Shown piece after piece: positions 1 to 19,084 of a DNA stretch of 64,000 bases. The notes beneath the pieces are model-generated. The model was not told where the DNA came from, made no database searches, and saw nothing but the letters and a program-made list of their open reading frames with translations. Both the position numbers and the translations under genes were made by a program. Source of the DNA: Fibrobacter sp. UWB11 (lineage in GTDB: Bacteria > Fibrobacterota > Fibrobacteria > Fibrobacterales > Fibrobacteraceae); NCBI RefSeq assembly GCF_900143015.1, contig NZ_FSRT01000001.1:62001-126000 (forward strand), read 5' to 3'. Numbering within the stretch: the first letter of the stretch is position 1; every line of letters begins with the position of its first letter.

Positions 1-2
1 TA

Positions 3-86
3 AGATTTTCTATAAATCATTTTACTAAAGATTGTGACTTTGTAGAATTGAAACATGCACTTGATTACATAAATAGCTGTTTGTAG
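3..86 (+). CDS. C-terminal fragment of a possible class V aminotransferase / cysteine desulfurase
   Basis: An open frame enters from the left edge and stops at TAG 84-86, giving 27 residues. The segment contains RFSINHFT followed by an acidic turn and a helix ending DYINSCL. That pattern resembles the C-terminus of class V PLP-dependent enzymes (cysteine desulfurases), where an R-[FI]-S strand is followed by a [TN]-x-[ED]-x-[ID]-D turn and a last helix. The helicase ATG lies 11 bases after the stop and its ribosome binding site overlaps the stop, so the two genes are almost certainly co-transcribed. The assignment rests on one short motif and could be wrong. The rest of the gene is outside the window. 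Confidence 0.4.
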   Translation, partial: RFSINHFTKDCDFVELKHALDYINSCL

Positions 87-97
87 GAGATTGTTCT

Positions 98-1828
98 ATG
101 AGTAACGAAATATTAAAAAAGCATCTAAGCGATTTAAAAATTGAGACCCTGAGGAAATTGCTTGGCGAAGATATTGTAGAATCATTACTCGAATGGGAAC
201 TAGGAACTATTACAAAAAGCAAGTACAGCGAAATACTTTGTTCTGTACATGGAGTTAAATTATTTAAAAACCCTGAATTTCGCTATCACATATTACTCAC
301 ATTAAGAGGCAAACAAGCTGATACAGAGATTCCGATTCTAAAAAAACTGGCAAAATCAAAGAAAGACGATAAAAATGAGATAATAAAAGACGTTGCAAAG
401 TGTAAATGGAATAAATCGGAATTATCAAAAGAAATTTTGGGTATTTTTGGCTACACATTGGAAGATGCTTTCCCACAAAAAGAAACTGATGAAAAAAGTA
501 TTGTTCAAGTAGATGCAAATGAAAGATTTTATGAATTACTTGATTATCAGTATGTTATAAAGCAAAGAGCTTTGACCAATTTGACAGATGGTGTGGAACT
601 AAAGAGATTCCTGATTCATATGCCCACAGGAACTGGTAAAACCAAAACTGCGATGCATATTATTTGCCATCATATAAATTTCAATTTGCGAAAAAAAGGA
701 CTTGTTTTATGGATTGCTAATACCGTAGAACTGTTAAGGCAAGCTGAAAGTACGTTTGAAGCGGTTTGGAGAAATCTCGGTGACGGCTCAATAAATGTAT
801 ATAAGCTTTGGGGAACAAACGAACCTTCGCTAGGCGATGAAACCTTAAATGGTTTTATGGTGTGCAGCATACAGAAGTTGTTGGCGCTAACAAAAAATTC
901 CCATGGAAAGAATTTGTTTAACAGAATAGTGAATGATGTTCGTCTTGTTGTATTTGACGAGGCACACAAGGCTTTTGCAAAAGAATGGTCTGATATTGTT
1001 GACCAGTTAATGATAAAAAAGAGAGGAATGCAAGACCGAGCACTTATAGGCTTAACAGCGACTCCTGGACGCACAACATCGATAAGTGGCGAAAATTCGG
1101 CTTTTGTCAACCAGTTTGGTTCTAATATTATTTCGATAGATACTGAAATTATTAATAGGATTAATTTGTCGGAACAAGACGCTGATAATGCAACGGCGGA
1201 AATGGATATTATAAAATATTTCCAGCAGCGAGGAGTTTTGTCAAAGATAAAGAAAGAAGAACTTGAGTATCCTGAATGTTTGACAGAAGAAGAAATGAAA
1301 GGCATCAGATTAGTCGCCACAGAATATGGCTATGATGATTTTTCAAAGGATGCACTAGAAATAATTGGAAAGAATAGGTTTAGAAATATTCGTATAATTG
1401 AAAGAATTAAAGAACTGAATCGAGACGATTTTCCCACAATTGTCTTTGCTTGTTCCTTGAGCCACGCTCAACTTCTTTCTTCTGCTTTGACTTTAGCTGG
1501 AGTGCCGAACGCTCTTGTGACGGGAAACATGGATGCGACGGATAGAAAAAACGCCATTGCGTACTTTAAAGACCGTAGTAATCCACTTAATGTCCTTATT
1601 AATTATGAAGTTTTAACTACAGGGTTTGACGCGACAAATATTAAGTGTGTTTTTATTACTCGGCCGACCAATTCTGTTGTATTGTATAGTCAGATGTTGG
1701 GAAGAGGCTTGCGAGGTCCTCAAATGGGCGGCAACGAAGAATGCTTGCTTATAGATGTTAAGGATAATTTGAAAAAGTATGACGAACATCTAGCTTTTTC
1801 TCATTTTAACAATTACTGGAATTATTAA
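98..1828 (+). CDS. DEAD/DEAH-box superfamily 2 helicase of a putative defence operon
   Basis: A 576-aa SF2 helicase-type ATPase. Walker A (MPTGTGKT, about residues 175-182), Walker B/DEAH (VVFDEAH, 284-290), motif III-like TATPGR (320-325) and a C-terminal helicase lobe ending in a motif VI-like QMLGRGLRG (near 535) are all visible. About 140 N-terminal residues precede the ATPase; they are helical and I do not recognise them. The start is fixed by TAGGAGA seven bases upstream, overlapping the stop of the preceding gene. It is followed 18 bases later by a GHKL ATPase and then a PLD nuclease in one operon, so it probably translocates on or remodels DNA within a restriction-like complex. No methylase or nuclease domain is fused. 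Base composition is AT-rich compared with the next region, which fits horizontal transfer. Confidence 0.85.
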   Translation: MSNEILKKHLSDLKIETLRKLLGEDIVESLLEWELGTITKSKYSEILCSVHGVKLFKNPEFRYHILLTLRGKQADTEIPILKKLAKSKKDDKNEIIKDVAKCKWNKSELSKEILGIFGYTLEDAFPQKETDEKSIVQVDANERFYELLDYQYVIKQRALTNLTDGVELKRFLIHMPTGTGKTKTAMHIICHHINFNLRKKGLVLWIANTVELLRQAESTFEAVWRNLGDGSINVYKLWGTNEPSLGDETLNGFMVCSIQKLLALTKNSHGKNLFNRIVNDVRLVVFDEAHKAFAKEWSDIVDQLMIKKRGMQDRALIGLTATPGRTTSISGENSAFVNQFGSNIISIDTEIINRINLSEQDADNATAEMDIIKYFQQRGVLSKIKKEELEYPECLTEEEMKGIRLVATEYGYDDFSKDALEIIGKNRFRNIRIIERIKELNRDDFPTIVFACSLSHAQLLSSALTLAGVPNALVTGNMDATDRKNAIAYFKDRSNPLNVLINYEVLTTGFDATNIKCVFITRPTNSVVLYSQMLGRGLRGPQMGGNEECLLIDVKDNLKKYDEHLAFSHFNNYWNY

Positions 1829-1846
1829 TTAAGGAGATAGATAATC

Positions 1847-3673
1847 ATGCCAAATGAAATTTTCGTTATAAGGTCTATGGCCGATGCGTTGCGCAACACT
1901 GGCTACAAGAATATTGAAAGCGCTATGGCTGAAATTGTGGATAATTCCATACAAGCAGAAGCGAAAAATGTTTTCATTGTCGTAAAGGAAACCGTCAATC
2001 CAAATTCAGGTCGAAAGAATGTAAGTGAAGTTGTTTTTATTGACAATGGAACTGGCATGACGGACTCCGAATTGGGGGGATGTTTGGCTTATGGTTATTC
2101 AAGTAGAACCGACCGAAGGGGAATGGGAAGATTTGGCGTGGGCTTGCCTCAGGCATCTATGCACGCCTGCCCCGCAGTGGATGTTTATTCATGGCAAAAT
2201 GGGTATGAAAACTGTAAAAAAGTATTTCTTGATGTAGAAAAAGTACGTGAAGGCGAACAGAAAAATATTCAGGACCCTGTCTTAGAAAGCGTTCCGCGCG
2301 AATATGAACGCTATTTAGAATACACCATATCAAGTACGAAAGAAAAGGTGTCTTTTAAGTCGCATGGAACTGTTGTTATTTGGAAAAATTGTGATAAAGT
2401 CGTTCCCAAAACCGTTGGTACACTTTTTGATAAGCTTTTGTTCACTTTAGGACAGAAATTTAGATATTTCATTCTCGAAGAATGTTGCTCTATTGTGCTC
2501 ATTGAGCACGACAATACAAGCAATTTAAAAAAGATTATGCCCAACGACCCGTTAATGTTGATGCCGAATAATCTTGTATTAGGAAATCCCGAAAAGCCGG
2601 GGACAATCGACACAAGTCACGCTAACAAGAAATATTGTGTTCCAGTTTTTGAGCCCTATCATAAGCCAGATACAAAAAATTTTGATGAATCGACAAATTC
2701 CATTAAATATCCAGTTAAATACATTGATGTAAAAACAGGAGAGGTTAAGGAATCATTTGTTTATATAAAATTCTCAATCGTAAAAGATGTTTTTTATGCG
2801 CAAGATGCGGTTGTTACGGACCCAGGAAGCACTGAAATTGGTAAACATGTAAAAAAACTCGAAGGAATTTCTGTTGTCAGAGCTAATCGTGAAATAGATT
2901 TTGGACAGTTTGATTTTTATGATAATGTTAATGAACCTACTCACCGTTGGTGGGGATGCGAAATAAGATTTAATCCAGAGCTAGACGAAGCGTTTGGCGT
3001 TGCAAACAACAAACAACATGTAGAACTTCATTATTTAGACCCTGATGATTATAAAGGAAAAGATAATGAAGTCAAACCTATGTGGCTACAACTTTATTCT
3101 ATAATTCATAATACTATTCGAGCAATGTTTGACAAGAATAAGGTGACGAGAAAAAATTCAAGGGTTAAACCTTCGACTAATCCGCCAGCTTCGCCTACAG
3201 AGACGATTATAAATAATGTTGAACAGAATAATGATAATGATTCTCAATCAAAGCAAGCCGCAGAGACGAAGCCCCTTGAAGAGCGAATTGAAGGCGCCAA
3301 ACAGGTTCTTGAAGAAAATGGCGTGAACAATCCAACAGATGAGGAAATTCGCTCTTATTTGAACAATTCCGTGAACATTTGTCATAAAGCAATGCGAAAT
3401 GCTCCCTTGTTTGACATGTCTTACGAATTGGGAACATGTTCTGTGTATATAAACATGGACCATCCTTTTTATAAAAACTATCTGGAAAAACCACTTCAGG
3501 AAGACCCTGATTTTCTCACGGCTTTTGAACTGTTTATAGCGTCACTTGCTAAAGTAATCGATGAAACTAATGTTTCTTATAAAGATTCCAATGATGATTT
3601 GATTGCTCGATGGAATGAACGCTTGAGAGCGTATATTTTTGAACAAATGCACTCGAATTTGACGGGAAAGTAA
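1847..3673 (+). CDS. GHKL-family ATPase (MORC/MutL/Hsp90-like), defence operon
   Basis: A 608-aa protein with an N-terminal Bergerat-fold ATP-binding domain. The N box has E29 and N33 (AEIVDNS), the G1 box is DNGTGM (66-71), and the G2 lid is GRFGVGL (94-100). There is no histidine-kinase phosphoacceptor domain. The domain is instead followed by a long unassigned region, a polar linker around 430-470 rich in N, E and Q, and a C-terminal alpha/beta segment. This layout resembles the prokaryotic MORC-like or MutL-like ATPases known from restriction-type operons. AAGGAGAT lies eight bases before the ATG. It sits between an SF2 helicase and a PLD nuclease, one base from the latter, so a joint complex is likely. 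An ATP-driven DNA clamp role is inference from the family. Confidence 0.8.
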   Translation: MPNEIFVIRSMADALRNTGYKNIESAMAEIVDNSIQAEAKNVFIVVKETVNPNSGRKNVSEVVFIDNGTGMTDSELGGCLAYGYSSRTDRRGMGRFGVGLPQASMHACPAVDVYSWQNGYENCKKVFLDVEKVREGEQKNIQDPVLESVPREYERYLEYTISSTKEKVSFKSHGTVVIWKNCDKVVPKTVGTLFDKLLFTLGQKFRYFILEECCSIVLIEHDNTSNLKKIMPNDPLMLMPNNLVLGNPEKPGTIDTSHANKKYCVPVFEPYHKPDTKNFDESTNSIKYPVKYIDVKTGEVKESFVYIKFSIVKDVFYAQDAVVTDPGSTEIGKHVKKLEGISVVRANREIDFGQFDFYDNVNEPTHRWWGCEIRFNPELDEAFGVANNKQHVELHYLDPDDYKGKDNEVKPMWLQLYSIIHNTIRAMFDKNKVTRKNSRVKPSTNPPASPTETIINNVEQNNDNDSQSKQAAETKPLEERIEGAKQVLEENGVNNPTDEEIRSYLNNSVNICHKAMRNAPLFDMSYELGTCSVYINMDHPFYKNYLEKPLQEDPDFLTAFELFIASLAKVIDETNVSYKDSNDDLIARWNERLRAYIFEQMHSNLTGK

Positions 3674-3674
3674 A

Positions 3675-4574
3675 TTGACTATACTTTTTAAAAATCAAAT
3701 AAAAGAGCGAGTACTTGAAGAACTTGAACAATGCGAAGACTCTTTGCAATTGGTGTCTGCTTTTTGCAAAGAGTCCGTTGTGAAGTTCTTAGATGATAAT
3801 TGTAGAATTGCTGTTCCCCAAAAGCGTTTGTTAGTTAGGTTTCGAAAAAGTGATTTGATTTCAAAGGCATCGGATTTGTCGTTGTATGATTATTGTATAG
3901 AGCACAATTGGGACTTGTATATCAATTTCAGTCTTCATGCGAAAATATTCATTTTCGATTCTCTTCGTTATGTCATAGGAAGCTCGAATTTAACGGGAAA
4001 GGGTTTTCTGTTTGATGAAGGTAATTATGAAGCAGCGACATTCGATTATTTAGATGATGATGACTGTCAGAGAATAAACAATTTGTTTGCTTCTTCGACA
4101 CTTATGACGCCAGAACTATATGAAAAAATGAAACAAGAAATGAACAGTGTAGAACCGAGCACAAAAATTGAAGGTGCGGGCTGGTCTGACGATATAAAGG
4201 AGCTTGTTAAAGATGAATTGTCTGTTTTGTTTGCGGAAGATTTTCCACCAACAGAAGATGTTCGCTCTTTATATCATCAACCTATTTCTTTTTTAAATCT
4301 GCAAACTAATCAAAGTCCTGACGATATTAAACAAGCTTTTTTAAACTCCAAATGTTTTTCTTGGCTAAAGAAGATTCTAAAAGAAAACAACTCTGAGATG
4401 TATTTTGGTGCTATAACGGCATGCTTACATGATGCATTGATAAATGAACCAAAGCCATACCGTCGAGATGTTAAAATATTACTCCAAAATCTTCTGAGCT
4501 GGATAAATTGTTTAAATATCAATGAAGTTAAAATTGACCGTCCTGGTTATTCACAACGGGTACGATTGATGTAA
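3675..4574 (+). CDS. Phospholipase D-type nuclease with a single HKD motif
   Basis: A 299-aa protein starting at TTG, one base after the stop of the GHKL gene, so translation is probably coupled. The HKD signature H88-x-K90-x4-D95 is followed by GSSN (102-105), as in single-motif PLD nucleases that work as dimers (Nuc, BfiI type). The C-terminal half, about residues 155-299, is unassigned. In the operon it is the obvious DNA-cleaving partner of the helicase and GHKL ATPase. It is the last gene, followed by a near-perfect terminator hairpin. A phospholipase role is unlikely because there is no signal peptide and the neighbours act on nucleic acid. Confidence 0.8.
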   Translation: MTILFKNQIKERVLEELEQCEDSLQLVSAFCKESVVKFLDDNCRIAVPQKRLLVRFRKSDLISKASDLSLYDYCIEHNWDLYINFSLHAKIFIFDSLRYVIGSSNLTGKGFLFDEGNYEAATFDYLDDDDCQRINNLFASSTLMTPELYEKMKQEMNSVEPSTKIEGAGWSDDIKELVKDELSVLFAEDFPPTEDVRSLYHQPISFLNLQTNQSPDDIKQAFLNSKCFSWLKKILKENNSEMYFGAITACLHDALINEPKPYRRDVKILLQNLLSWINCLNINEVKIDRPGYSQRVRLM

Positions 4575-4575
4575 G

Positions 4576-4617
4576 AATAAAGAAAAGCGAATTTGAACAA
4601 TTCGCTTTTTCTTTATT
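4576..4617 (+). terminator. Rho-independent terminator of the helicase-GHKL-PLD operon
   Basis: An 18/19-base stem (4576-4593 against 4599-4617) with loop TGAAC, beginning two bases after the PLD stop codon. The arms are nearly perfect complements and U-rich, so it may work on both strands. Confidence 0.85.
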
Positions 4618-5228
4618 GTCTTTTCTCAAGAATTACAACAGTCCAAAAATTCGTTCGAAATTCTGCATCTGTTCTCTCTTTTCGCCGTAAGAGATACAAA
4701 AATGGAGGCGCCTCACTTGACTGCCCCTGCAATTCGCAAGCACTCGCAGCCGTTCCCGTCGTTTCGCTTTTGTTCGCTGTGCAAAACGCTGCAAGCGCCT
4801 CCTTGCTTCGGGCCGTTAAAATGTCCGCCCGATGGCGCCGGAAAGCGTGCAGGACGCTGCACGTCCTTGCAGGGGGGGGGCTAAAGTTGCGAAAATCCGC
4901 ATTTTTCGAAAGTGTCACGAATTGACAGAATAATTTTTTATTTTTTCCGCTGTTCAAGTCGGGACGGAAAAAATCCCCTTCGATATCTATATCGCCCTCA
5001 AGCTCATTTCCTTTTTTCGTCGCGCTGTTGCGTGAGTTGAGTATGAGGTTTTTATATATCAATATCTCCACAATTACGGAGTGAGTCCTACTCATACTCC
5101 TACTGTTAATCATTCTCCTATTACTACTACTGATATAATAGGGTTGCAAGTTTTTGTCGCGACTTGAACCCGTTTGTTATGCCTGGGTTCAAGCGTTTGC
5201 AAATCGTTGCGACTTGCAAAAGTTCCCA
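4618..5228. other. Intergenic block, no supported gene; GC-rich insert and G9 tract
   Basis: About 610 bases with no convincing gene; the open frames lack ribosome binding sites and family resemblance. Bases 4690-4885 are much richer in G and C than the flanks and contain a run of nine G (4872-4880). Bases 5036-5103 hold an inverted repeat (GAGTATGAG and CTCATACTC) around a smaller CTCC/GGAG inversion. The stretch lies between the defence operon and the integrase-bearing element and may contain an element boundary or control region, but I could not find an attachment core. Confidence 0.4.
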
Positions 5229-5229
5229 C

Positions 5230-5252
5230 AAAAAAAGGCCCCGAACAGGGCC
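5230..5252 (-). terminator. Terminator of the XRE repressor gene
   Basis: Read on the minus strand, a GGCCC/GGGCC stem with a six-base loop is followed by seven or more T. It lies about 40 bases beyond the stop of the minus-strand repressor gene. Confidence 0.7.
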
Positions 5253-5292
5253 AAAGGACTGCTTATGCCTAAGCTAAAGGAACACGGGGAAA

Positions 5293-5616
5293 TTACCCTT
5301 GTTGGTCTTCAGAACTTTCATCTTTTAGACGCAGACTGCGAAGCCCGTTGCGTACGATTAGAGCGCATTCCTCGGGAGTCAGCACAACCTCGCCCCGAAA
5401 CTCCGCAGCGTGACGAGTCTTTATCGCCTCCCAAAGTTCAGGAGTGAAAAGCTCGTCGATTCCCATGCCGATTTCCAGTAGTTTCTGGCAAATGTCGTAG
5501 CTGGGAGTCGCCTTGCCTTTCTTCCAAGCGGTGACGCTTGAGGCGTTGAGTCCCAGTTCGTCGGCCAGGGTGCTGGCCGTTTTGTTTGTTCTGTCAAGGT
5601 ATTTTTCAACGTTCAT
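5293..5616 (-). CDS. XRE/Cro-CI family helix-turn-helix repressor
   Basis: A 107-aa DNA-binding protein. Residues 11-60 form a Cro/CI-type HTH: STLADELGLNASSVTAWKKG has the expected helix 2-turn-recognition helix pattern, followed by the conserved P-S-Y-D-x2-x-K-L-L-E-I-G segment. The short acidic C-terminus has no peptidase domain, so RecA-stimulated self-cleavage as in CI/LexA is not expected. It is transcribed away from the recT operon across an AT-rich region that contains a good sigma70-like promoter for the other side. This is the usual layout of a lysogeny or element repressor gene and its target operon. Confidence 0.8.
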   Translation of the reverse strand: MNVEKYLDRTNKTASTLADELGLNASSVTAWKKGKATPSYDICQKLLEIGMGIDELFTPELWEAIKTRHAAEFRGEVVLTPEECALIVRNGLRSLRLKDESSEDQQG

Positions 5617-5680
5617 GCCATAAATTTAATCAAAAATTGCATAGTATTCAATAATTTTTAAAATTTTTTTAAAAAATCCC

Positions 5681-5709
5681 TTGATTTTTTGCCTAGAATT
5701 GAATAGATT
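5681..5709 (+). promoter_or_regulatory. Candidate sigma70-type promoter of the early (recT) operon
   Basis: TTGATT (5681-5686) and TAGATT (5704-5709) are separated by 17 bases in the AT-rich gap between the divergent XRE repressor and the recT operon. Imperfect repeats of ATTCAATA / ATTGAATA nearby (5647-5711) are candidate repressor operators. The match is by eye only. Confidence 0.5.
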
Positions 5710-5739
5710 TTGAATGTAAGGCAAAAGAAATTGAAAAGT

Positions 5740-5922
5740 ATGCAAAAGAAAATAAACGGTACGCAAAAAATTTGGCAGGTCGGCATAACGGCACGGGCGA
5801 AGCAGGCCCTGGAGCAGCTGGCCAGCGAGAACAAGCGAAAGGGTTTCCCGGCGAGCCAGGGACTCATTGCCTCAACCTTGATACTTAGGGCTTTTGAACA
5901 TGGCGAATCCATATTGGGCTAA
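5740..5922 (+). CDS. Small basic protein, possible ribbon-helix-helix regulator
   Basis: A 60-aa frame starting at ATG 5740. The longer in-frame start at TTG 5710 would overlap the candidate -10 box and is unlikely. Residues 12-50 (WQVGITARAKQALEQLA, then a Ser-Gln-Gly turn and a second helix) look like a ribbon-helix-helix fold: a short strand and two helices. It overlaps the next gene and is the first gene of the recT operon, so an early regulatory role is plausible. I recognise no specific family. Confidence 0.5.
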   Translation: MQKKINGTQKIWQVGITARAKQALEQLASENKRKGFPASQGLIASTLILRAFEHGESILG

Positions 5923-6370
5923 GGTTTCGTTCAGTGACTTTATCAAGCACTTCCGAAAAATGACGGATGAACAGATTATCGCCGACGTGAGGGATTCGAT
6001 GGATGCACTTGAGGATGTTGACGGGACTGGCGACAGTTTCGGGGCGTTCATGGTGAAATGTTCCAGCGAGAGAATCCAGCAGCGCAGCGAGGTCAACAGG
6101 GCGAACGCCCTGGCTGGACACGAAAAACACGGACATGAGATTAGGAAAGTACAGCCGCCGCGATTGCCGACGACCGAGGAACTTTACGACTTCTGCGCGG
6201 AAAAGCACCTCGACGACGCGCTGGGACGCGAATGGCTGGAGATTACGCTTTCCAGGGGAGGGAAAACCCGTGAGGGCATGACGATTATGAACTGGAAAGG
6301 GGCGGTCACGAACTACGTGGCGGCAAGGCTAAAAACCCTGTCGAAGGGACAACAAATGAACAACTACTAA
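5900..6370 (+). CDS. Phage-type hypothetical protein upstream of recT
   Basis: A 156-aa protein starting at ATG 5900 and overlapping the previous gene by 23 bases. The central part has an N-R-A-N-A-L-A-G-H motif, then the pattern PTTEELYDFCAEKHLDDALGR, which recalls the C-terminal region of replication-initiation or replisome-organiser proteins of temperate phages (a short helix pair after a basic linker). No catalytic motif is visible. It lies 22 bases before recT. A role in replication or recombination is inferred from position only. Confidence 0.5.
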   Translation: MANPYWAKVSFSDFIKHFRKMTDEQIIADVRDSMDALEDVDGTGDSFGAFMVKCSSERIQQRSEVNRANALAGHEKHGHEIRKVQPPRLPTTEELYDFCAEKHLDDALGREWLEITLSRGGKTREGMTIMNWKGAVTNYVAARLKTLSKGQQMNNY

Positions 6371-6392
6371 CAACAAAGGGAAACCAACAACT

Positions 6393-7244
6393 ATGAATAA
6401 CGCAATAGCTACACAATCCAATCCGCAGCAGGTCAACGACGCCCTGCTGCTTGACTACCTCACCGCGACGACGCCGGGTCTCAACGACCACCAGGTCAAG
6501 CAGTTCCTCGCGGTTTCCATGGCGTTCGGGCTGAACCCGTGGAAGAAAGAAGTTTATGCCGTCACGTACAACAATCGCGACGGCGGAAAGACGATGAGCA
6601 TCGTCACGGGGTACGAAGTGTACCTCAAGCGTGCCGAAATGAACCCCAACTACGACGGCTACGAGACGGAATGGCGCGGCGAGTTCGTCAGGGGCAAGTC
6701 CACCAAGAGTGGCAAGAACGGCAACTACAGCGTGGATGCGCTGGTTCCCAAGGACGGGGACGTGAGCTGCATCTGCCGCGTTTTCCGCAAGGACAGGAAG
6801 GTTCCCGTCAAGTGCGAGGTGTTTTTCAGCGAGTACGACCAGGGCAATTCCATGTGGCAGAGCAAGCCCAGGGTCATGCTTGAGAAGGTCGCGATTGCGC
6901 GTGCGTTCCGCCTCGCTTTCCCCGTGGAGTTCGGCGGGATGCCCTATGAGAGCGCGGAGCTTTCGCCGGAACAGGGACTTGACCCTGAAAAGGAAATCAA
7001 GATTGAGGAAGCGGTGGAAAGGGCGGAAGCCCCGAAGCCGGAACAGCAGCCGCAGGAACACACGGGCGACCGCAAGGCGAAATTCATCGAGGTGTGCAAC
7101 AAGATGATTCCCGCCGCGATTAAGGACACGCTCAAGGCGTACAACTGCCGCAGTCTTGAAGAACTGGGCCTTGACCAGATTGACGGATTCTACCGCGAGG
7201 CGAAGCGCGTGGAGGCCGGAATGATGCAGGAGGTGGAGTTCTAA
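6393..7244 (+). CDS. recT: RecT/Bet-type single-strand annealing protein
   Basis: A 283-aa protein of the RecT/Redbeta group, which anneals complementary single-stranded DNA during phage-type homologous recombination. The family core is visible at about residues 25-185: a D-x-Q-V-K-Q-F-L helix, LNPWKKEVY, SIVTGYEVYLKRAE, and the later LEKVAIARAFRLAFP segment ending in GGMPYESAE. The acidic/proline-rich tail (200-230) leads to a small C-terminal helical part. The ribosome binding site is AAAGGGA. The stop overlaps the next start (TAATG). No exonuclease (RecE or lambda-exo type) is seen, so the cognate nuclease is either unrecognised or absent. Confidence 0.85.
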   Translation: MNNAIATQSNPQQVNDALLLDYLTATTPGLNDHQVKQFLAVSMAFGLNPWKKEVYAVTYNNRDGGKTMSIVTGYEVYLKRAEMNPNYDGYETEWRGEFVRGKSTKSGKNGNYSVDALVPKDGDVSCICRVFRKDRKVPVKCEVFFSEYDQGNSMWQSKPRVMLEKVAIARAFRLAFPVEFGGMPYESAELSPEQGLDPEKEIKIEEAVERAEAPKPEQQPQEHTGDRKAKFIEVCNKMIPAAIKDTLKAYNCRSLEELGLDQIDGFYREAKRVEAGMMQEVEF

Positions 7245-8239
7245 TGGAGGCGACGATGGAAACCGAAGAAGTGATGGAAGAAAAGAATCCCAACGCGCTC
7301 GTCCTTATCGACGAGGGAAAACAGTTCGCGGTCAAGACGGACTGCATGGACCCGGAGGCGCTTTTCCTGGACAAGAAGAACTTTGTCCCGATGCTCAACC
7401 AGGTCAAGAAGATTGCGCGTGGGCTGGTCGCGGACGTTCACACCGAGGAAGGGTTCAAGGCCCGCAAGGCGATGAACGCCAAGCTCGCGAAGCTCAAGAC
7501 CGCCATCGAGGACAGGGGCGCACAGGTCGCCAAGGAACTCAAGGCGAAGCCCAAGCGCGTCGATGAAACGCGTCGGCTTGTGAAGGAAACGCTCGAAATG
7601 CTCCAGAAGGAGGTCATGGCGCCCATCAGGGAAATCGAGGCTAGACAGCAGGAAATCGTGGAGATTTCCAACATTCCCGCGACGGCCATCGGCTGCAATT
7701 CCGAAGGGTGCAGGCAGGTGCTTGAGGCCATCGAAGCACATGTTCACGACGCCAAGTATTGGGACGAAAGCTACCAGGAAGCGATGGACGCCATCAACGA
7801 CGCGAGGCGCCAGGTCAACGGCATCCTCGCCAGCGCAGAGAAGCAGGAGGCGGAGAAAGCTGAACTGGAACGCTTGAGGGCGAGTCAGGCGGACTTTGAA
7901 AAGGCGGCGCGTGAAAAGGCGGAAGCCGAGAAACGCGAAACGGAAGAAAAACTGCGCAAGGCGCAAGAAGAAGCAGAAACGGCAAAACGCGAGGCGGAAG
8001 CGGCCAAGCGCGAAGCTGCGGAAGCACAGAAATTGACCAATGTCGATTTCGGGGAGGCTGATGCCAAGGCGACACGTGAGGCGATGCTTTTCCCGGACGA
8101 CGAACGCCAATACCGACGCATGGCGAATCGGGAAGCACTCGAAGACCTGATGAACTACGGACTTGACGAAGCCGCCGCGAAGCAGCTCGTTACGGACATA
8201 GTGCACGGGAAAGTGCGCCATGTGCGGTTTGTTTACTAA
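7244..8239 (+). CDS. Coiled-coil phage protein associated with RecT (DUF1351-like)
   Basis: A 331-aa protein whose start overlaps the recT stop by one base. Residues 60-120 have the pattern of RecT-linked phage proteins annotated as DUF1351: a TEEGFKARKAMNAKLAKLKTA helix, then K-x-K-P-K-x2-D-E-T-R-R. Residues 185-265 are a long charged coiled coil built from K/R-E-A-E repeats. A folded C-terminal helical domain (275-331) follows. The tight coupling with recT points to a recombination accessory function. The family call is from memory of the sequence pattern and is moderate. Confidence 0.55.
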   Translation: MEATMETEEVMEEKNPNALVLIDEGKQFAVKTDCMDPEALFLDKKNFVPMLNQVKKIARGLVADVHTEEGFKARKAMNAKLAKLKTAIEDRGAQVAKELKAKPKRVDETRRLVKETLEMLQKEVMAPIREIEARQQEIVEISNIPATAIGCNSEGCRQVLEAIEAHVHDAKYWDESYQEAMDAINDARRQVNGILASAEKQEAEKAELERLRASQADFEKAAREKAEAEKRETEEKLRKAQEEAETAKREAEAAKREAAEAQKLTNVDFGEADAKATREAMLFPDDERQYRRMANREALEDLMNYGLDEAAAKQLVTDIVHGKVRHVRFVY

Positions 8240-8362
8240 GAAAACTCGCAGCTTTTTCTAACCCAAGCTGCGGCGCTGCTGGTGCGCGAATCGCCAGCGT
8301 TCTTTCTTTGACTAAAAACAGTTAAGAAAATCAACAACCAATAACCATAAAGGAAAAAACAA
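8240..8362 (+). other. Structured leader between two element genes
   Basis: The 123-base gap holds an 8-base-pair hairpin (CGCAGCTT with AAGCTGCG around a ten-base loop) followed by a second GCTGG/CCAGC hairpin, then an A-rich leader with AAGGA before the next ATG. There is no T tract, so it looks more like an mRNA processing or attenuating structure than a terminator. Confidence 0.4.
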
Positions 8363-8629
8363 ATGACATACGAAGCAAGAGGAAGGTTCGAGGAAACCTT
8401 CGCAAATGTACCGGGCGTAACCGTTTCGGAACTCAAGATTACCTGCGACGACCATGCACACGTTCTGCGCTGGATGGCGGCTGTCGTAAAGGAATGTACG
8501 GGCGTCGCACTTGAGGAACGGATAAAGTTCAGCGTCTATGAAAAGATTGACGACGAACGCGTGAACTCGAAGGAGTATTTCGTTTACGAGGGAGGCGAGA
8601 ACGTCTCCTGGAACAAGGTGAAGATTTAG
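8363..8629 (+). CDS. Hypothetical protein of the integrated element
   Basis: An 88-aa soluble protein with a good ribosome binding site (AAGGA). It begins M-T-Y-E-A-R-G-R-F and alternates predicted strands and one helix (DDHAHVLRWMAAVVKECTG). No family is recognised. The following gap has a small hairpin (CTGCA-TGG-TGCAG). Its position downstream of recT suggests an early accessory gene. Confidence 0.5.
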   Translation: MTYEARGRFEETFANVPGVTVSELKITCDDHAHVLRWMAAVVKECTGVALEERIKFSVYEKIDDERVNSKEYFVYEGGENVSWNKVKI

Positions 8630-8677
8630 CCGACCGCTGCATGGTGCAGGCGGTGGCCTAGATGGATTGAATCGAAG

Positions 8678-8995
8678 ATGGACAGACTGGAAAAGGAACT
8701 TGAACAGATAATCGTGATGGAAGATGCAGGGCTTAGCCTACGCTCGCTCTGTCGCATTTATAAGGAAACCGTGCTGGACGATGAGTCCATGAAGGACATT
8801 CCGCTTGAGGCGAAGCAGTTCGCCGTTGCGGAGAGCCTTACCAAGGGCTACTGCGGGATAGCACGGAAGTTCGGGTTTAATGATGAAAAGTTCATGTCTG
8901 GACTCATGTCAAACTTTATGCTGCCACTTGTGGCCGCGCTGCATTATATCGTCACCAGGAATGGTGAAAGGAGTACCGATGAAGATAATCGCTGA
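8678..8995 (+). CDS. Hypothetical helical protein of the integrated element
   Basis: A 105-aa, mainly helical protein (LEKELEQIIVMEDAGLSLRSL, later a hydrophobic helix MSNFMLPLVAALHYIV). It overlaps the next gene by 17 bases, so the two are probably co-translated. No DNA-binding motif is obvious and I do not recognise a family. Confidence 0.5.
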   Translation: MDRLEKELEQIIVMEDAGLSLRSLCRIYKETVLDDESMKDIPLEAKQFAVAESLTKGYCGIARKFGFNDEKFMSGLMSNFMLPLVAALHYIVTRNGERSTDEDNR

Positions 8996-9245
8996 TGAAG
9001 AATTTCTCGACCGTACCGAGGCTGGGAATTTTATCGGGATGGCGACATCCACTTTCGACAAGCTGTTGGCAAAAAGCCGTCACGGCAAGTTGGTCTATCC
9101 GCTGGAGGTTTACCAGCCGGGTGGACGCGGCACTCCGATGTGGTTTAGCAAGTCCAGGTTGAAGGAATGGCTCAATAATGTCATTTCCAGCGGCGGCATC
9201 GCCGTTTGTGCGAGAAAGACGCACTTCACGATGGACGAATTTTAG
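8979..9245 (+). CDS. Excisionase-like small DNA-binding protein
   Basis: An 88-aa protein starting at ATG 8979, chosen because GAAAGGAG lies five bases upstream; an in-frame upstream start at 8880 would bury it in the previous gene. The order L-D-R-T-E-A-G-N-F-I-G-M-A-T-S-T-F-D-K, then a strand, R-G-T-P-M-W-F and S-K-S-R-L-K-E-W-L fits the winged helix-turn-helix of excisionase/AlpA-like proteins (helix, wing, 'F-x-x-S-x-L-x-x-W' helix). In an element with a tyrosine integrase this is the likely recombination directionality factor. It is followed by a terminator. Confidence 0.6.
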   Translation: MKIIADEEFLDRTEAGNFIGMATSTFDKLLAKSRHGKLVYPLEVYQPGGRGTPMWFSKSRLKEWLNNVISSGGIAVCARKTHFTMDEF

Positions 9246-9267
9246 GAAGATACCTCCTTGACGCACG

Positions 9268-9295
9268 AAGGCCCTGGCTCATGCCGGGGCCTTTT
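9268..9295 (+). terminator. Terminator after the excisionase-like gene
   Basis: An 11-base arm AAGGCCCTGGC with its near-complement around a TCAT loop, then TTTTCTATTTTT. It ends the early operon and rules out the TTG start at 9258 for the next gene. Confidence 0.75.
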
Positions 9296-9308
9296 CTATT
9301 TTTGGGTC

Positions 9309-9641
9309 ATGGTCGAGATTGAACACGCATTGAGAAACTACCTGGTGAATCCGAACGACTTGGATTTGGGTTTCGCGATGGCTGCTTTGGCTCGAAAGAC
9401 AAAAGCGCATTATCGCGAACTGGGAGGCAACCTAAAGAAGGAAGCTGTCACGCTCGGCAAGACCTTCGCAGTTGATTTGAAAATCGGCAAATGGCCCGAT
9501 GTTCTTGACGGAAAGTTTGAAGATAACTTTAAAACCAAGACTGTTTCGTTCTTGAAAAAGATAAACGGCGATGTGCATAAGGCTGCGGAGCTGATGCTAA
9601 AACAGTGCTTCGACACCGTTGAAAAGAATGTCAAACGGTGA
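9309..9641 (+). CDS. Hypothetical protein
   Basis: A 110-aa soluble, lysine-rich, mostly helical protein. The ATG at 9309 is used because an upstream TTG frame would run through the preceding terminator hairpin. No clear Shine-Dalgarno sequence is seen. There is no recognised domain. It stands alone between a terminator and a lipoprotein gene in the integrated element, so it may be cargo. Confidence 0.45.
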   Translation: MVEIEHALRNYLVNPNDLDLGFAMAALARKTKAHYRELGGNLKKEAVTLGKTFAVDLKIGKWPDVLDGKFEDNFKTKTVSFLKKINGDVHKAAELMLKQCFDTVEKNVKR

Positions 9642-9662
9642 TTTTTTGTAATTTATAAAGAA

Positions 9663-10190
9663 ATGAAAACAAACATTCTTTTTCCCATCCTCTTTGCAAT
9701 ATCTTTAGAACTTCTTGTCGGATGCAGTGATTCCGCATCCAGTTCGTCGGAAGAAAAGAATCCTACGCTATATACTTCGGTGGTTCTTGGAAAGTGTGCG
9801 GACGCTTCCTCATCCAGTTCGTCGGATATTGAGAAGATGATTTCGTCGTTAATTGTTGGTTATGGTGAACATTCAGCTGTTTATTTAGGCGATTGCAGAG
9901 GTTGCTTTGACTTGACTCTTTACGCTTTAGATTATTGTGACGTTTCCGCTGATGTAGCTTTAGATTTTGTAGATGATACTCTGTTTATTTCTTATGTAAA
10001 TGTGCAAGAGGCTTCCAAGTGCACCTGTTATTCCTCCCATGATTTCAAGGTTCCATCAGTGAATTATAGGTATGTCAAATTTAATGAACAAGTTTTTAAT
10101 GTTGTTGCATCGAACATAAGGGTTGTCTGCTCAAATATAGGGGAATATAAAGAAGGTTATTGCGTCGAGAACGGACCGACGCATTTATAG
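9663..10190 (+). CDS. Small secreted lipoprotein with serine-rich linkers
   Basis: A 175-aa protein with a lipoprotein signal peptide ending in the lipobox LVGC (Cys20 or 21), then two S-S-S-S stretches typical of Fibrobacter surface proteins. The mature part has about a dozen cysteines, including CRGC and CTC, which suggests disulphide bonds. No domain is recognised. It lies inside the integrated element next to the integrase and may be host-derived or exported cargo. Confidence 0.6.
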   Translation: MKTNILFPILFAISLELLVGCSDSASSSSEEKNPTLYTSVVLGKCADASSSSSSDIEKMISSLIVGYGEHSAVYLGDCRGCFDLTLYALDYCDVSADVALDFVDDTLFISYVNVQEASKCTCYSSHDFKVPSVNYRYVKFNEQVFNVVASNIRVVCSNIGEYKEGYCVENGPTHL

Positions 10191-10198
10191 CAAAATAA

Positions 10199-10222
10199 GC
10201 TCGCTTTCGCGAGCCTTTTTTA
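10199..10222. terminator. Terminator between the lipoprotein and integrase genes
   Basis: GCTCGC-TTTC-GCGAGC stem followed by CTTTTTTA on the plus strand. It lies between the convergent lipoprotein and integrase genes and touches the integrase stop codon, so it could serve both. Confidence 0.75.
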
Positions 10223-11251
10223 TTTCTTGTTGAGAGCCTTTTCCAGGTCATCTTGCAGCAGGTGACTGTAGGTGTCCAAAGTCTGGCGCACGTCTTCATG
10301 GCGCATCAACTGCTGAACGATTTTCGGGCCAACGCCTGAACGGATTAGGTTGGATGCGAACGAGTGGCGCCACTTGTGGTTCGTCGCGTCGTCGCTCTTA
10401 TATCCCGCGGCTTCCACTGCAATTCGCAGCGTTTCGTTGCACCTGTCCGCATGGTCGAAACGTGCTGTCGCGAACATGCCGTCTTTCAGCTTGCCGTAGC
10501 GTTTGATTTCCGCCTTGAGGCGGTCGCTAATAGGGAGGAACGCTTCCTTGTCGCCCTTGCCGACGACGCGCATCTTTCCGTCCTCTTGGATGCACGACGG
10601 CCCGAATCGGCAAGCCTCCGCATGACGTAGGCCAGCGAAGGCCATGACCGACCAGAACAGTCTAAATTCCGGGTCGGGCGCGTTGTCGAGAATCCTTTCA
10701 ATCTGTTCGGGAGTCCAGAACGCCTTGGCGCGTTTCGGAACCTTGGGGAACGCCACGTCGCGGAACGGGTTGTAGTCGCCCAGGTCGTAAATCTTAGCCG
10801 CCCACTGGCAGAACTGGCTTGTGCAGCGAACCATTTCGTGCTGGGACTTGGGAGCGTACCTTTCGGACAGCCACACCGCCCAGTTCGTCGCCTGTTCGGC
10901 ATCGAAGCGCATGAGCGTCTTGATGCCGTTTGCATCAAGCCATTCCTTGAATGTCTTGAGGCGGTACTTGTAAGCGAGGTGGGTCTTGGAGTCGTCGCCC
11001 TTGGACGCCGCGACGGAGTCCAGGAACTTCGGGAGCGCCTCGTCGAAGCCCCTGTCCTTCGGCATGAGCTTGCGGCGGATTTCCTCGGGCATGAACCTGG
11101 CCGCGTTCATCATGTTCAGCCATTCCTGTGCGTCGCTCTTGCGCTTGGTTTTAAGACTGATGTAGGAGAACTCGCCATCCTCCGCGATTCTCCCGTACCA
11201 TGTAAGGTTGCCGCGGTACTTGTACCGCTGCGATATGCTGTAGCTTTTCAT
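10220..11251 (-). CDS. Tyrosine-type site-specific integrase
   Basis: A 343-aa phage integrase. It has an N-terminal arm/AP2-like part (1-50), a SAM-like core-binding domain (about 70-160) and a C-terminal catalytic domain. The catalytic set is visible: R209 (AGLRHAE), a lysine in the beta-hairpin GKGDKEA (232/235), H292-x-x-R295, H318 (LMRHED) and nucleophile Y328 (DTYSHLL). It should cut and rejoin DNA between element and host attachment sites. It is transcribed away from the tRNA-like sequence at 11486-11533, with a 234-base gap holding phased CTCACA repeats. This is the normal integrase-next-to-att arrangement and marks the right end of the element. Confidence 0.9.
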   Translation of the reverse strand: MKSYSISQRYKYRGNLTWYGRIAEDGEFSYISLKTKRKSDAQEWLNMMNAARFMPEEIRRKLMPKDRGFDEALPKFLDSVAASKGDDSKTHLAYKYRLKTFKEWLDANGIKTLMRFDAEQATNWAVWLSERYAPKSQHEMVRCTSQFCQWAAKIYDLGDYNPFRDVAFPKVPKRAKAFWTPEQIERILDNAPDPEFRLFWSVMAFAGLRHAEACRFGPSCIQEDGKMRVVGKGDKEAFLPISDRLKAEIKRYGKLKDGMFATARFDHADRCNETLRIAVEAAGYKSDDATNHKWRHSFASNLIRSGVGPKIVQQLMRHEDVRQTLDTYSHLLQDDLEKALNKK

Positions 11252-11286
11252 ACAAACAAATCTACTAAAATTTGCCTAAAAGTCGG

Positions 11287-11314
11287 CTCACAAAAAGCTC
11301 ACAAATGTCTCACA
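11287..11314. repeat. Three CTCACA repeats phased at 11 bases
   Basis: CTCACA occurs at 11287, 11298 and 11309, exactly 11 bases apart, on one face of the helix, about 36 bases upstream of the integrase start. The position suggests arm-type integrase or accessory-protein binding sites or an autoregulatory operator. This is inference from spacing. Confidence 0.5.
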
Positions 11315-11424
11315 TCATACCCGATTTTTGGCGGTTTCTCCCGTCTTTCGGGAAAAACCATTACAAGCGACGGAGAACCGCGACAGACAGTCCAAATCGC
11401 GCCGGAAGCCTTGATTTTACTGAT

Positions 11425-11457
11425 GAAAAAGGCCCGGAGGCTTTTGCCTTCGGGCTT
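11425..11457 (-). terminator. Terminator downstream of glgA / tRNA-like sequence
   Basis: On the minus strand, an AAGCCCGAAGGC arm and its complement around an AAAA loop are followed by CCTTTTTC. It is placed to stop transcripts coming from the glycogen synthase gene and the tRNA-like segment. Confidence 0.75.
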
Positions 11458-11485
11458 CCAATGGAGTACTTTCTGAAAATTTTTC

Positions 11486-11533
11486 GGGGCTGGGTTGATA
11501 GTCCGCTGCTCTAACCGATTGAGCTAAAGCCCC
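11486..11533 (-). pseudogene. Truncated tRNA-like sequence, putative attachment-site remnant
   Basis: On the minus strand this reads like the 5' half of a tRNA: acceptor strand GGGGCTT, a D arm GCTC-AATCGGTTA-GAGC, then GCGGACT at the start of the anticodon arm. The anticodon 3' side, variable region and T arm are missing. The sequence jumps to ATCAACC and AGCCCC, and the last six bases can pair with the acceptor strand. At 48 nt it cannot be a normal tRNA. It is next to a tyrosine integrase, so recombination in the anticodon region or an internal deletion is likely. The glycogen synthase stop codon (11524-11526) lies within it. Confidence 0.6.
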
Positions 11534-14473: not shown

Positions 14474-15604
14474 TTAGAAATCGGCGTGTGCGCTCATACC
14501 GAGAGCAAACTTCGTCTTGCCGACGACCGGGTTCTTGTTCTTGCTGAAGTTGTAGCCGAACCAGAAGGTAACGTTCGTGTTTATCGTCGGGTAGAGGTAG
14601 AAGTTCATGCCGAGGAATTCGAATTCGTCCTTGCTGATTTCGGAATCCGGATCGTGGTATTCAAAGCTTACGCCCAAGGAGAACTTCTTCGTGATGTTGA
14701 AGCTCGGTTCGATGGCGAAGAGCATTTGATCTTCGGTAAAGATTTGCGGTGCAGCGGTGTAGCCTTCGCCTTTGTTAACGATAGCATAGAAGTAGTTGAG
14801 GCCCAAGTTGAAGATGCTGTAGTTCAAGCTCGGCTCCACAAGGAAGGAGTGAACGGCTTCGCCCTTGTACGGGTGGATGCCATAAGCGGCATAGACGCTA
14901 TAGTTGAGGGTTTCGAGGCTCTTGGAGTAGTCGAGTTCTGTACCGAAGAAGTAGGTGTAGCCACGACCGACTTCGGAACCGAATACCCAGTCCACGCTCG
15001 GGGTGATGGTCAAGTGTTCGTCCGGGCGGTTCAAGAGCTTAAGGGCGTAGGTACCGAACACGGCAATTGCTGCCTTGCTGTCATCGGTGGCGCCAATGTA
15101 GAACTTACCGTCGCCAAACTTGTTGTTGCCGACTTCAACACCGAAACCGCGGAGGCTCTGGTCGCGAGAGATTGCTGCATAGCGGCTCGGGTCACGCCAG
15201 AAATAGTAATTGAATGTACCTGCGTTGTAGGTCAAGTCACCGAATACAAGGCTTACGTCTTGGAAAGGCTTCCAGCGGAGTTCGACTCCATCAAAGTTGA
15301 AAGCGGTGTAGCGATCATTGTCGCTTGTGATTGCCGTAGAGCGGGCGAGACCGTGACGGATTTCAGCAGCGCCTTCGCCGTTTGTGATATTGCTCTTGGT
15401 GTTTGTGAAAACGGTAACGGAAACGTTTTCGTCGAGGTTTGCCGTCACAGACAAGTCGATGTCCTGGTTTGCGGCGTTAGTGGGGTCAAAATCCCTGTTG
15501 AAGTAGCTAGCGAAGTCAAAATCGACATTACCGTGGATTTCGATGTCGGCGGCCATGGCAAAACCGGTAGCGGCAAGGGCAATCGGCAAAATGAGTTTAC
15601 GCAT
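14474..15604 (-). CDS. Outer-membrane beta-barrel (porin-like) protein
   Basis: A 376-aa exported protein. The start is the ATG at 15604, preceded by GGAAGGA; longer frames upstream lack a ribosome binding site. The signal peptide is MRKLILPIALAATGFAMA, cut before ADIEIHGNVDFDF. The mature part is a run of amphipathic strands with alternating aromatic residues (for example LRWKPFQDVSLVFGDLTYN) and it ends in phenylalanine (HADF), the usual last residue for barrel insertion. It resembles porin or maltoporin-type proteins in general layout, but no substrate can be assigned. Confidence 0.7.
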   Translation of the reverse strand: MRKLILPIALAATGFAMAADIEIHGNVDFDFASYFNRDFDPTNAANQDIDLSVTANLDENVSVTVFTNTKSNITNGEGAAEIRHGLARSTAITSDNDRYTAFNFDGVELRWKPFQDVSLVFGDLTYNAGTFNYYFWRDPSRYAAISRDQSLRGFGVEVGNNKFGDGKFYIGATDDSKAAIAVFGTYALKLLNRPDEHLTITPSVDWVFGSEVGRGYTYFFGTELDYSKSLETLNYSVYAAYGIHPYKGEAVHSFLVEPSLNYSIFNLGLNYFYAIVNKGEGYTAAPQIFTEDQMLFAIEPSFNITKKFSLGVSFEYHDPDSEISKDEFEFLGMNFYLYPTINTNVTFWFGYNFSKNKNPVVGKTKFALGMSAHADF

Positions 15605-15768
15605 ACAATCCTTCCAAAAAAAGATTTGTTTGAATTTTACGTGCAAAAGATAGAAATATCTTTGATTTGAAACCAATGTTTTGTTCCTTGAAGCTCAAAA
15701 ATACGGTTATGCTTCGTCTTAGTGGCTTCAGTTTTGTAAATTTAGTAGCGTCTTTAAAAGAGGTGGAT

Positions 15769-16401
15769 ATGAAATTCTCCCCCCGTTTTTTTGTTCTTTT
15801 GTCGCTTGCCTTAGTGCAAGGTGTTTTTGCGTTGACCGCGGACCAGGTTTTAGACAAGTCCAAGGCTTGGTTCAAGTCGGGCAAGGCCTGGAGCCTCAAT
15901 TTTAGGGCGCAGATGTTTCAAGTGGATTCCCCGGATGTGAATACGCAATCGGGAACGCTTGTTGTCGCCGAAGGGGACAAGTTCAAGCTTGACCTTCTGG
16001 GAATCAAGTTTTACAGCGATGGCGAAAGCCTTTGGCAGTGGAATGTTGAACAAAAGCAAGTTCTTATAAAGGCTGTGGAAGACTTGTCGAGTTCGCTCCA
16101 TCCGTCGGAACTGTTGTTCAAATATCTGAACTGCAAGGCGCTCGAAATGAGCGAAGGCGAATTTGCCGGAAAAAAGCTTTGGGTGCTAAAACTCGACCCT
16201 GCAAAGTATGCGGGGCAGTTTACCAAGATGGAAGTTTGGCTATCGAAAACGGATTATTCGCCGGTGAGACTTTTTACGGAAGACCCGTCGGGTAATGCCA
16301 CGTGGTATGGCATTCTGGACATGAAGGTGGTCAAGAAAATTTCTAATGATGATTTCAAGTACAAGCCTGTTGCAGGTGTTGACGAAATCGATATGAGGTA
16401 A
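15769..16401 (+). CDS. lolA: LolA-type outer-membrane lipoprotein carrier
   Basis: A 210-aa periplasmic protein. The ATG at 15769 is preceded by AGAGGTGG and starts a signal peptide (MKFSPRFFVLLSLALVQGVFA). The LolA fold pattern is visible: a first helix with LDKSKAWFKSGKAWSLNFRA, strands with GTLVVAEGDKFKLDLLG, SDGESLWQWNVEQKQV, and a C-terminal FDVxK-like strand (YGILDMKVVKKI). LolA shuttles lipoproteins across the periplasm. It is the first gene of an operon with a beta-propeller/FlgD protein, a PorV-like protein and recF. This organism makes many lipoproteins, so the job is plausible. Confidence 0.75.
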   Translation: MKFSPRFFVLLSLALVQGVFALTADQVLDKSKAWFKSGKAWSLNFRAQMFQVDSPDVNTQSGTLVVAEGDKFKLDLLGIKFYSDGESLWQWNVEQKQVLIKAVEDLSSSLHPSELLFKYLNCKALEMSEGEFAGKKLWVLKLDPAKYAGQFTKMEVWLSKTDYSPVRLFTEDPSGNATWYGILDMKVVKKISNDDFKYKPVAGVDEIDMR

Positions 16402-16403
16402 TC

Positions 16404-18044: not shown

Positions 18045-19084
18045 TTAAAATGAAGAATCTTGTAGTTGCTGCTTTGGCCGTTTGTTCGTTGGCGTCTTCT
18101 GCATTTGCTGGGCCATTTACAAAGAAGTCTGAACTTGGCGGTTTTGATGGTTTTGTCGAACGTATGGGCGCTGGCGTCCGTGAAATGGGTCGTGGTAACA
18201 CGGGCTCTGCCGATACGGCATCGATGCCAGGTGCTTACTGGAACCCGGCATTGCTTGGCTTCCGTGAAAATCTTGGCTTTACGATAAATTTTGAAAAGCG
18301 TGACTTGGACCGCTTGGGCGGTTCCTTGGGTGTCGAAGGTAAGGTCGGAAAGCGCATGGGCGTGGGCTTTGCGATGCTTTATCGCGGCGATACGGATTTC
18401 AAGGTTATTGATAATGATGACCAGACTTTGGGCGAGGCAGAACCGTTCTTTACGATGTTCTACTTGGGCTTTGCTTTCCGTGCAACTCGTCAGGATGCAT
18501 TTGGCCTTTCACTTTCGATGAGCTACGATAATTTGGATATTGCCGAATTTTACGATGGCGTTGAAGAATCGTTCCGCAGTCCGGTGACCATCAATTTGAG
18601 CTGGTTCCGCCAGTGGAATCGCAAGTGGTCTTCGTCCGTGGTAATCCGCAATTTAAGCTTCAGTAAGAATTTGTCTGCAAAATGGACGAAAAACCCGAGC
18701 AAGGACAATTCGCTTGCCTCGACAGAAGGCGTGCGCCCGAAGGTGTTGCAAATTGGGCTTGGTTATCGTTCGCAAATTATGGGCAAACCGGTTTATGCCT
18801 GGATGGAAGCAATCGATTATCAGGTGGCCGATACGCTTTTGGCGTTTGACCCGCAGCTCCATGTTTGGACGGGTCGCGTAGGCTTTGAATGTGAAATTAT
18901 TCCAAATGCTACACTTCGCGTGGGTATGGATGATTTGGACTGGATGTTTGGTGCCGGTTACAAGTTCGATATCCACATTGGCCGCAAGAAATATCCGATT
19001 GAAGTGAACTATGCGTTCCTTTACGAAACTCGCGCGGGTATCTGGACTCCGTTTACCCTTGGTTTGAGGGGATACCTTCCTTGA
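18041..19084 (+). CDS. PorV/PorQ-like outer-membrane protein
   Basis: A 347-aa protein with a signal peptide (MKNLVVAALAVCSLASSAFA) and the N-terminal signature GAGVREMGRGNTGSADTASM then YWNPALLG, as in PorV/UPF0164-type barrels, which carry 'R-x-x-G-x-G-x-x-x-x-x-x-D-x-x-x-x-x-W-N-P-A'. The rest is amphipathic strands. It overlaps both neighbours by four bases. In Bacteroidetes PorV and PorQ shuttle type IX cargo, and the partner FlgD-Ig protein upstream fits that idea, but a role here is inference. Fatty-acid transporter-like proteins share the motif and are an alternative. Confidence 0.65.
   Translation: MIKMKNLVVAALAVCSLASSAFAGPFTKKSELGGFDGFVERMGAGVREMGRGNTGSADTASMPGAYWNPALLGFRENLGFTINFEKRDLDRLGGSLGVEGKVGKRMGVGFAMLYRGDTDFKVIDNDDQTLGEAEPFFTMFYLGFAFRATRQDAFGLSLSMSYDNLDIAEFYDGVEESFRSPVTINLSWFRQWNRKWSSSVVIRNLSFSKNLSAKWTKNPSKDNSLASTEGVRPKVLQIGLGYRSQIMGKPVYAWMEAIDYQVADTLLAFDPQLHVWTGRVGFECEIIPNATLRVGMDDLDWMFGAGYKFDIHIGRKKYPIEVNYAFLYETRAGIWTPFTLGLRGYLP

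Follow-up and report, generated by a model that had tools for sequence, protein, structure and literature searches.

The SspABCD proteins set a phosphorothioate (PT) on one strand of the DNA at a short motif; of the effectors that work with this mark, SspFGH damages DNA that lacks PT and is toxic where the mark is missing, and SspE requires PT (PMC8092258). It has been established experimentally that SspE and SspFGH can share one SspBCD module (PMC8092258), and a 2025 review gives the PT effectors as DndFGH, SspFGH, SspE and PbeABCD (PMC12707154), to which DndI (PMC11662687) and BREX-4 can be added as further PT-linked effectors. In a 2021 survey ~84% of 2,678 sspBCD loci had neither of SspE and SspFGH (computed from PMC8092258). 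Iyer et al. 2008 predicted restriction operons that consist of a MORC protein, a helicase and a nuclease, the last sometimes of the HKD type, and that often include methylases (PMC2292703).

The locus described here, from Fibrobacter sp. UWB11, is judged from its sequence to be very probably a seven-gene PT defence operon, in which sspD-B-C-A is followed by an effector trio of helicase, GHKL ATPase and PLD-family nuclease that is not described in the resources searched. The window, that is the whole stretch of 64,000 nucleotides that was analysed, corresponds to G000:C1:62001-126000, and a window position is the position in L009 minus 18000. The left edge of the window cuts the operon, with bases 1-86 being the 3' end of the cysteine desulfurase gene; the operon begins 7.3 kb before the window, and window coordinates cover only three of its seven genes. 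A preliminary description of the window had seen a three-gene operon, possibly an undescribed defence system, and had advised extending the contig leftwards; this extension revealed four more operon genes (sspD/brxP-like, sspB, sspC and sspA-like), and the upstream DNA shows the trio to be the effector half of an SspABCD-type PT operon. The features are as follows:

L009:10721-12445, + strand, sspD/brxP-like PAPS reductase (PADLOC BrxP 7e-80, SspD 2e-11; Pfam PAPS_reduct)
L009:12450-13325, + strand, sspB, DUF4007 (PADLOC SspB 2e-54; Pfam DUF4007)
L009:13331-16951, + strand, sspC ATPase (PADLOC SspC 9e-131)
L009:16956-18086 (ends at window 86), + strand, sspA/dndA-like cysteine desulfurase, probable ATG start (PADLOC SspA 3e-36; Pfam Aminotran_5)
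window 98..1828, + strand, SF2 helicase/translocase of the RadD/ResIII type, 576 aa (Pfam ResIII 2e-21, DEAD 5e-17, Helicase_C)
window 1847..3673, + strand, MORC-like GHKL ATPase with an S5-like domain, 608 aa (Pfam HATPase_c_3 6e-23)
window 3675..4574, + strand, single-HKD PLD-family nuclease, 299 aa, TTG start (Pfam PLDc_2 7e-8)
window 4582..4610, + strand, terminator-like hairpin of 12 pairs with a T-rich tail, end of the operon

The four upstream genes share the strand of the trio and are at most 11 bases apart, and the desulfurase gene ends 11 bases ahead of the helicase gene. All the parts of an Ssp module are recognised, namely SspB, SspC, an SspD-type reductase and an in-operon SspA cysteine desulfurase; the reductase carries a C-terminal 4Fe-4S domain, an Fe-S type of SspD that is common to BrxP of BREX-4 (PMC12839542). 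By their predicted products these genes are a PT DNA-modification module of the SspABCD type.

The three adjacent window genes with intact motifs, spacings of 18 and one bases and a terminator, as first reported, were all confirmed by ORFs, Pfam, homolog alignments and the hairpin at 4582-4610; the 18 bases separate the helicase and GHKL genes, the single base the GHKL and PLD genes. The helicase has a Walker A motif MPTGTGKT (175-182), DEAH (287-290) and a motif VI QMxGRGLRG, the GHKL protein the Bergerat-fold N box E29IVDN33 and G boxes D66NGTGM71 and G92MGRFGVGLP, and the PLD protein an HKD core of H88/K90/D95 plus S103/N105. Barring variable positions in between, these catalytic motifs are invariant in 7-8 diverged homologs (34-57% identity to the window proteins) and the trio are therefore genes under selection; homolog alignment also backs the TTG start of the PLD gene. 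The segment GISVVRANREI (GHKL 340-350) fits the MORC S5 motif GhXhhpXXRhl (PMC2292703) at 10 of 11 positions, with E replacing one hydrophobic residue.

Among solved structures RadD (6jde) is the closest to the helicase (2e-26), and a profile search puts MORC2 and MORC4 at the top for the GHKL protein (MORC2 match 9e-5), whose model, of only moderate confidence (pLDDT 71), is closest by fold to SMCHD1, MutL and MORC and too uncertain for a reading of the C-terminal domain, which is of unknown fold. The PLD model (pLDDT 83) has a PLD fold (Zucchini, NucT, Nuc) across ~150-180 residues with a low TM-score, and a profile search of solved structures puts chain 7clg first for this protein; we take this putative helicase (helicase-PLD) to be SauUSI, which cuts modified DNA. 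The idea of a defence-type operon with a MORC-like ATPase, a helicase and a nuclease, already put forward for the window, is supported.

When GTDB genomes were scanned for the GHKL protein, seven loci were obtained, from Coriobacteriaceae, Lachnospiraceae, Oscillospiraceae, Ruminococcus, Treponema saccharophilum, Anaerostipes and Lachnospira multipara. As far as the loci are preserved the order D-B-C-A-helicase-GHKL-PLD is kept in all seven, on one strand and with gaps mostly <25 bases. Two are decayed copies or assembly errors: L004 has a broken GHKL frame and a 923-base gap between C and A, and in L005 D is interrupted, C and the helicase are truncated and A was not found. SspB is single-copy and within the operon in seven of the eight genomes, the L005 genome having extra matches elsewhere. 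The trio system is rare and mobile; its GHKL gene was found with high score in 1 of 168 genomes of the window's phylum, the source genome only, and among 391 genomes from the class to which Lachnospira belongs one has it, the copy already found (DUF4007 is present in 6), and searches of a phage collection and of viral contigs gave no GHKL ortholog.

More distant homologs are found on plasmids. In a tblastn search of 72,556 plasmids the GHKL protein matched 47 records, of which 30 were listed, and 14 among the matches listed are orthologs (H1-H12, H15, H18; 26-46% identity over 62-99% of the protein), picked by length, identity and gene context, with context helping in the choice of H18. Their hosts are Cyanobacteriota, Bacteroidota, Alphaproteobacteria and Treponema, and the trio spans six named phyla (Bacillota, Actinomycetota, Spirochaetota, Bacteroidota, Cyanobacteriota and Pseudomonadota). 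SspC is present on 14/14 ortholog records among the matches listed, ~11 kb or less from the trio where positions were compared, and was detected on 0/16 of the other GHKL records among the matches listed, which are paralogs (checked against the SspC plasmid matches). The Fisher p of 7e-9 for this linkage (14/14 vs 0/16, among the matches listed) is a guide only, since two Trichormus records are near-duplicates and context was used for H18. With HMMs made from the eight loci, a helicase was found near in 12/12 opened ortholog loci (GHKL score >=165) and PLD in 10/12; by the same check neither was near the paralogous GHKL gene in any of the 7 opened loci (score <140). The opened neighbourhoods of paralogs were Druantia and Dcm-Vsr-HNH, among other contexts. 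The Ssp genes of L037 are found ~6 kb past the trio. Of the plasmid records in which SspC was found, about one in five (14 of about 70) has the trio alongside. That the genes belong together, as the preliminary description had supposed, is borne out by their being kept together in 7/7 relatives and 10/12 opened plasmid loci, with PLD replaced in the other two.

Trees of the modification genes (D+B+C) and of the effector genes (H+G+P) reject each other, with AU p of 1e-5 and 6e-5. Neither the helicase nor the GHKL tree rejects the other (AU p 0.34-0.39), and between the PLD tree and each of these two the rejection is mutual. The modification module of L003, for example, is close to L007/L008 but its effector is near L002 and the window, and in L005 the modification module is close to that of L004 and the GHKL to that of L007. 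Where PLD is replaced, its slot (L034:9028-10107 and L048:13759-14838) is held by an unrelated 359-aa protein with no Pfam match, the first 96 residues of which match PADLOC 'Effector, Endonuclease' in the L034 copy (the scan covered L034 only); a D..D..QVK pattern in both copies is suggestive of a PD-(D/E)XK-like protein and makes it a candidate nuclease. From the agreement and rejection of the trees, together with the replacement of PLD, it follows that helicase and GHKL form a constant core, and that the nuclease and the modification module are exchangeable. The trio adjoins an SspE-like gene in Hymenobacter (L030) and is beside SspFGH in Agrobacterium (L034), as is expected for a third effector.

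Several other arrangements were seen at Ssp loci. In L040:1836-4061 and L043:1103-3271 SspDBCA is followed by a single HKD-SF2 helicase fusion with an architecture like that of PbeA (checked by Pfam in L040); it corresponds to the window's helicase and PLD in fused form, and in L043 an ABC-type ATPase comes next. Another gene pair, a 637-675 aa unknown and a protein of ~780 aa that has two HATPase domains (with a trace of HEF_HK in the first), is found beside SspBCD in L063:16133-20387 (A. baumannii VB1190) and L065:13151-17529 (Polaromonas), and could be a candidate effector for the A. baumannii Ssp loci without SspE (PMC12421847). Proteins with a DndB/DGQHR domain or named 'DNA phosphorothioation-associated putative methyltransferase' stand beside Ssp genes in L031:5857-8163, L032:6016-8352, L035:12695-13948, L062:10369-12396 and L066:7334-9448, five PT loci that mix Dnd and Ssp parts.

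How the operon compares with described systems can now be set out. SspABCD-SspFGH (PMC8092258) is alike in its Ssp-type PT module, its three-gene effector and its modular logic, but SspF has a Walker A motif, no domain is recognised in SspG and SspH has an FtsK/SpoIIIE-like end. That the trio is SspFGH, as three genes after sspABCD might be, is ruled out by domain content and by zero PADLOC matches to SspF, SspG or SspH; the same library finds the true SspFGH in L034 with scores up to 2282 bits. SspABCD-SspE has the same modification module, however SspE is a single DUF262-type GTPase-nuclease unrelated to the trio, and DUF262-DUF1524 was not found in the three window proteins by Pfam or PADLOC. 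PbeABCD with Dnd (PMC10853773) likewise ties an HKD nuclease and an SF2 helicase to PT, and the window helicase has a weak similarity to PbeA (2e-15, PADLOC), but PbeA is fused, and the system has a CxC ABC-ATPase, DndE as cognate and no GHKL; in the window HKD and SF2 are separate genes and there is no ABC ATPase among the seven operon genes, which excludes PbeABCD. BREX type 4 (PMC12839542) shares a BrxP-like Fe-S PAPS reductase, DUF4007, a BrxC/SspC-type ATPase and a cysteine desulfurase, and was rejected as there is no PglZ or BrxL among the seven genes, phage genes flank them and the effector is the trio. DISARM (DrmA, DrmB/DUF1998, methylase) was rejected with only a weak likeness of PLD to DrmC (3e-6), and so was MZA; the N-terminal ~180 aa of GHKL resemble MzaB, but with 63 bits against a cut-off of 850 and no other Mza gene in the operon. 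The predicted MORC/paraMORC operons of Iyer 2008 (PMC2292703) are alike in having a GHKL-S5 ATPase, an SF2 helicase and a nuclease, HKD included; in the available passages they commonly have DNA methylases and PT genes are unmentioned, whereas the partner in the window is a PT module.

No model that specifically names the trio is present in PADLOC 2.0 or NCBIfam, and no description of helicase-GHKL-PLD with Ssp was found in the literature searched, which consisted of published open-access papers. The preliminary description had found neither a methylase nor a fit to DISARM, Mokosh or Zorya; the trio indeed matches no named effector module and is unmatched in PADLOC, but the operon does have a PT module and this modification half matches Ssp. 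The modification half is therefore known, and the trio is provisionally novel as a PT effector.

The operon is found inside a myophage-type prophage. To its left, on the opposite strand, are a head protease, major head protein, tail sheath and more phage genes, with terminase and portal genes beyond these tail and head genes, and its right-hand neighbours are RecT, an integrase and a gene that by eye is XRE-like. The operon is probably foreign cargo of the phage because its GC is 36-40% vs 56-59% for the adjacent structural genes. A 13-bp core AGTCCGCTGCTCT occurs at G000:C1:19786 and at window 11500, inside split tRNA-Met halves; the joined flanks give tRNA-Met(CAT), neither junction holds a tRNA, and the uninterrupted tRNA-Met site is present in at least 8 same-genus genomes. 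This core fits better as att than an 18-bp repeat at window 11287 and G000:C1:19837. The inserted stretch is ~53.7 kb (G000:C1:19786-73512; window 1-11512; L057, L054 and L009), and as its leftmost ~8 kb contains non-phage genes and an intron-split tRNA, which in related genomes is remote from the empty site, the left end of the phage can be placed only approximately.

In this leftmost part, at L057:10197-10532 (G000:C1:22197-22532), two tRNA halves are ~240 bases apart, the intervening bases having a weak match to the full Group I intron model (19.5 bits, below gathering), and such split tRNA pairs recur in many same-genus genomes. Elsewhere in the prophage region L054:6555-9914 (minus strand; G000:C1:34555-37914) has FolE-, QueE-, QueC-like, TGT/DpdA-like and ParB-like genes (by eye only), possibly a 7-deazaguanine DNA modification set beside the PT system. 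Just outside the prophage, window 14486-20352 has five consecutive + strand ORFs (394, 244, 546, 347 and 423 aa), the first four without a PHROG match and those of 394, 546 and 347 aa without a Pfam match; the 423-aa ORF has an SMC/RecN N-terminal domain, and the five may be a further defence operon.

In the mechanism that we propose, the cysteine desulfurase and PAPS reductase would mobilise sulfur and SspB/SspC would put PT marks at a short motif in host DNA. The helicase and MORC-type ATPase, which co-evolve, would together be an ATP-gated clamp and motor that is loaded on DNA and travels along it, the ATPase holding the DNA and the helicase moving or remodelling it; this core would license an interchangeable nuclease, here PLD, to cut non-self DNA. 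The non-self signal would most likely be the absence of the PT mark, as for SspFGH and DndFGH, and analogy inclines us to the view that the trio attacks unmarked DNA, with PT as the self mark. The reverse may be imagined, with PT marks switching the trio on in a type IV-like manner, so that it would damage phage DNA or arrest replication. The closest solved relative of PLD would fit this, being the helicase-PLD 7clg, taken to be SauUSI, a cutter of modified DNA. SspE also acts thus with the same modification module (PMC8092258), but SspFGH and DndFGH, PT effectors that likewise consist of three genes, act against unmarked DNA, and a motor with a nuclease resembles ATP-dependent restriction enzymes, and we think PT sensing unlikely, if still deserving of attention.

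It would seem improbable that the trio is an independent defence system which hitch-hikes in defence islands with Ssp genes and has no functional coupling to them; the incongruent module trees point that way, as does the frequent decoupling of restriction and modification modules in Dnd (PMC10853773), but close relatives have a same-strand operon with short spacings, 14/14 remote plasmid orthologs are SspC-linked (among the matches listed) and paralogous GHKL genes are not, and partners have been exchanged yet the linkage is kept, which argues for coupling. A role outside defence, in PT-coupled DNA repair or gene regulation, is more doubtful still and we consider it very improbable: the helicase core is closest to RadD, a repair helicase, the ATPase has a MutL-like fold and regulatory roles have been proposed for PT marks (PMC11931770), however the patchy spread on plasmids and a prophage, the swapping of the nuclease and the co-location with SspE and SspFGH speak against it.

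Returning to the trio as an effector against unmarked DNA, the operon as prophage cargo would probably shield the lysogen, and hence the prophage, from competing phages. With about a fifth of the SspC plasmid records found carrying it, the trio could make up a substantial share of the missing PT effector side, and it puts a MORC-type ATPase into a PT system that is open to tests in laboratory E. coli, a host in which SspBCD modules were expressed before. It is about as likely as not that PT-dependent restriction has here a class of its own, in which a bacterial MORC-type clamp with a helicase would read backbone sulfur and license an exchangeable nuclease (PLD or another fold). If this is true, part of the sspBCD loci without a known effector would be accounted for, and there would be a bacterial model for the action of MORC proteins on marked DNA.
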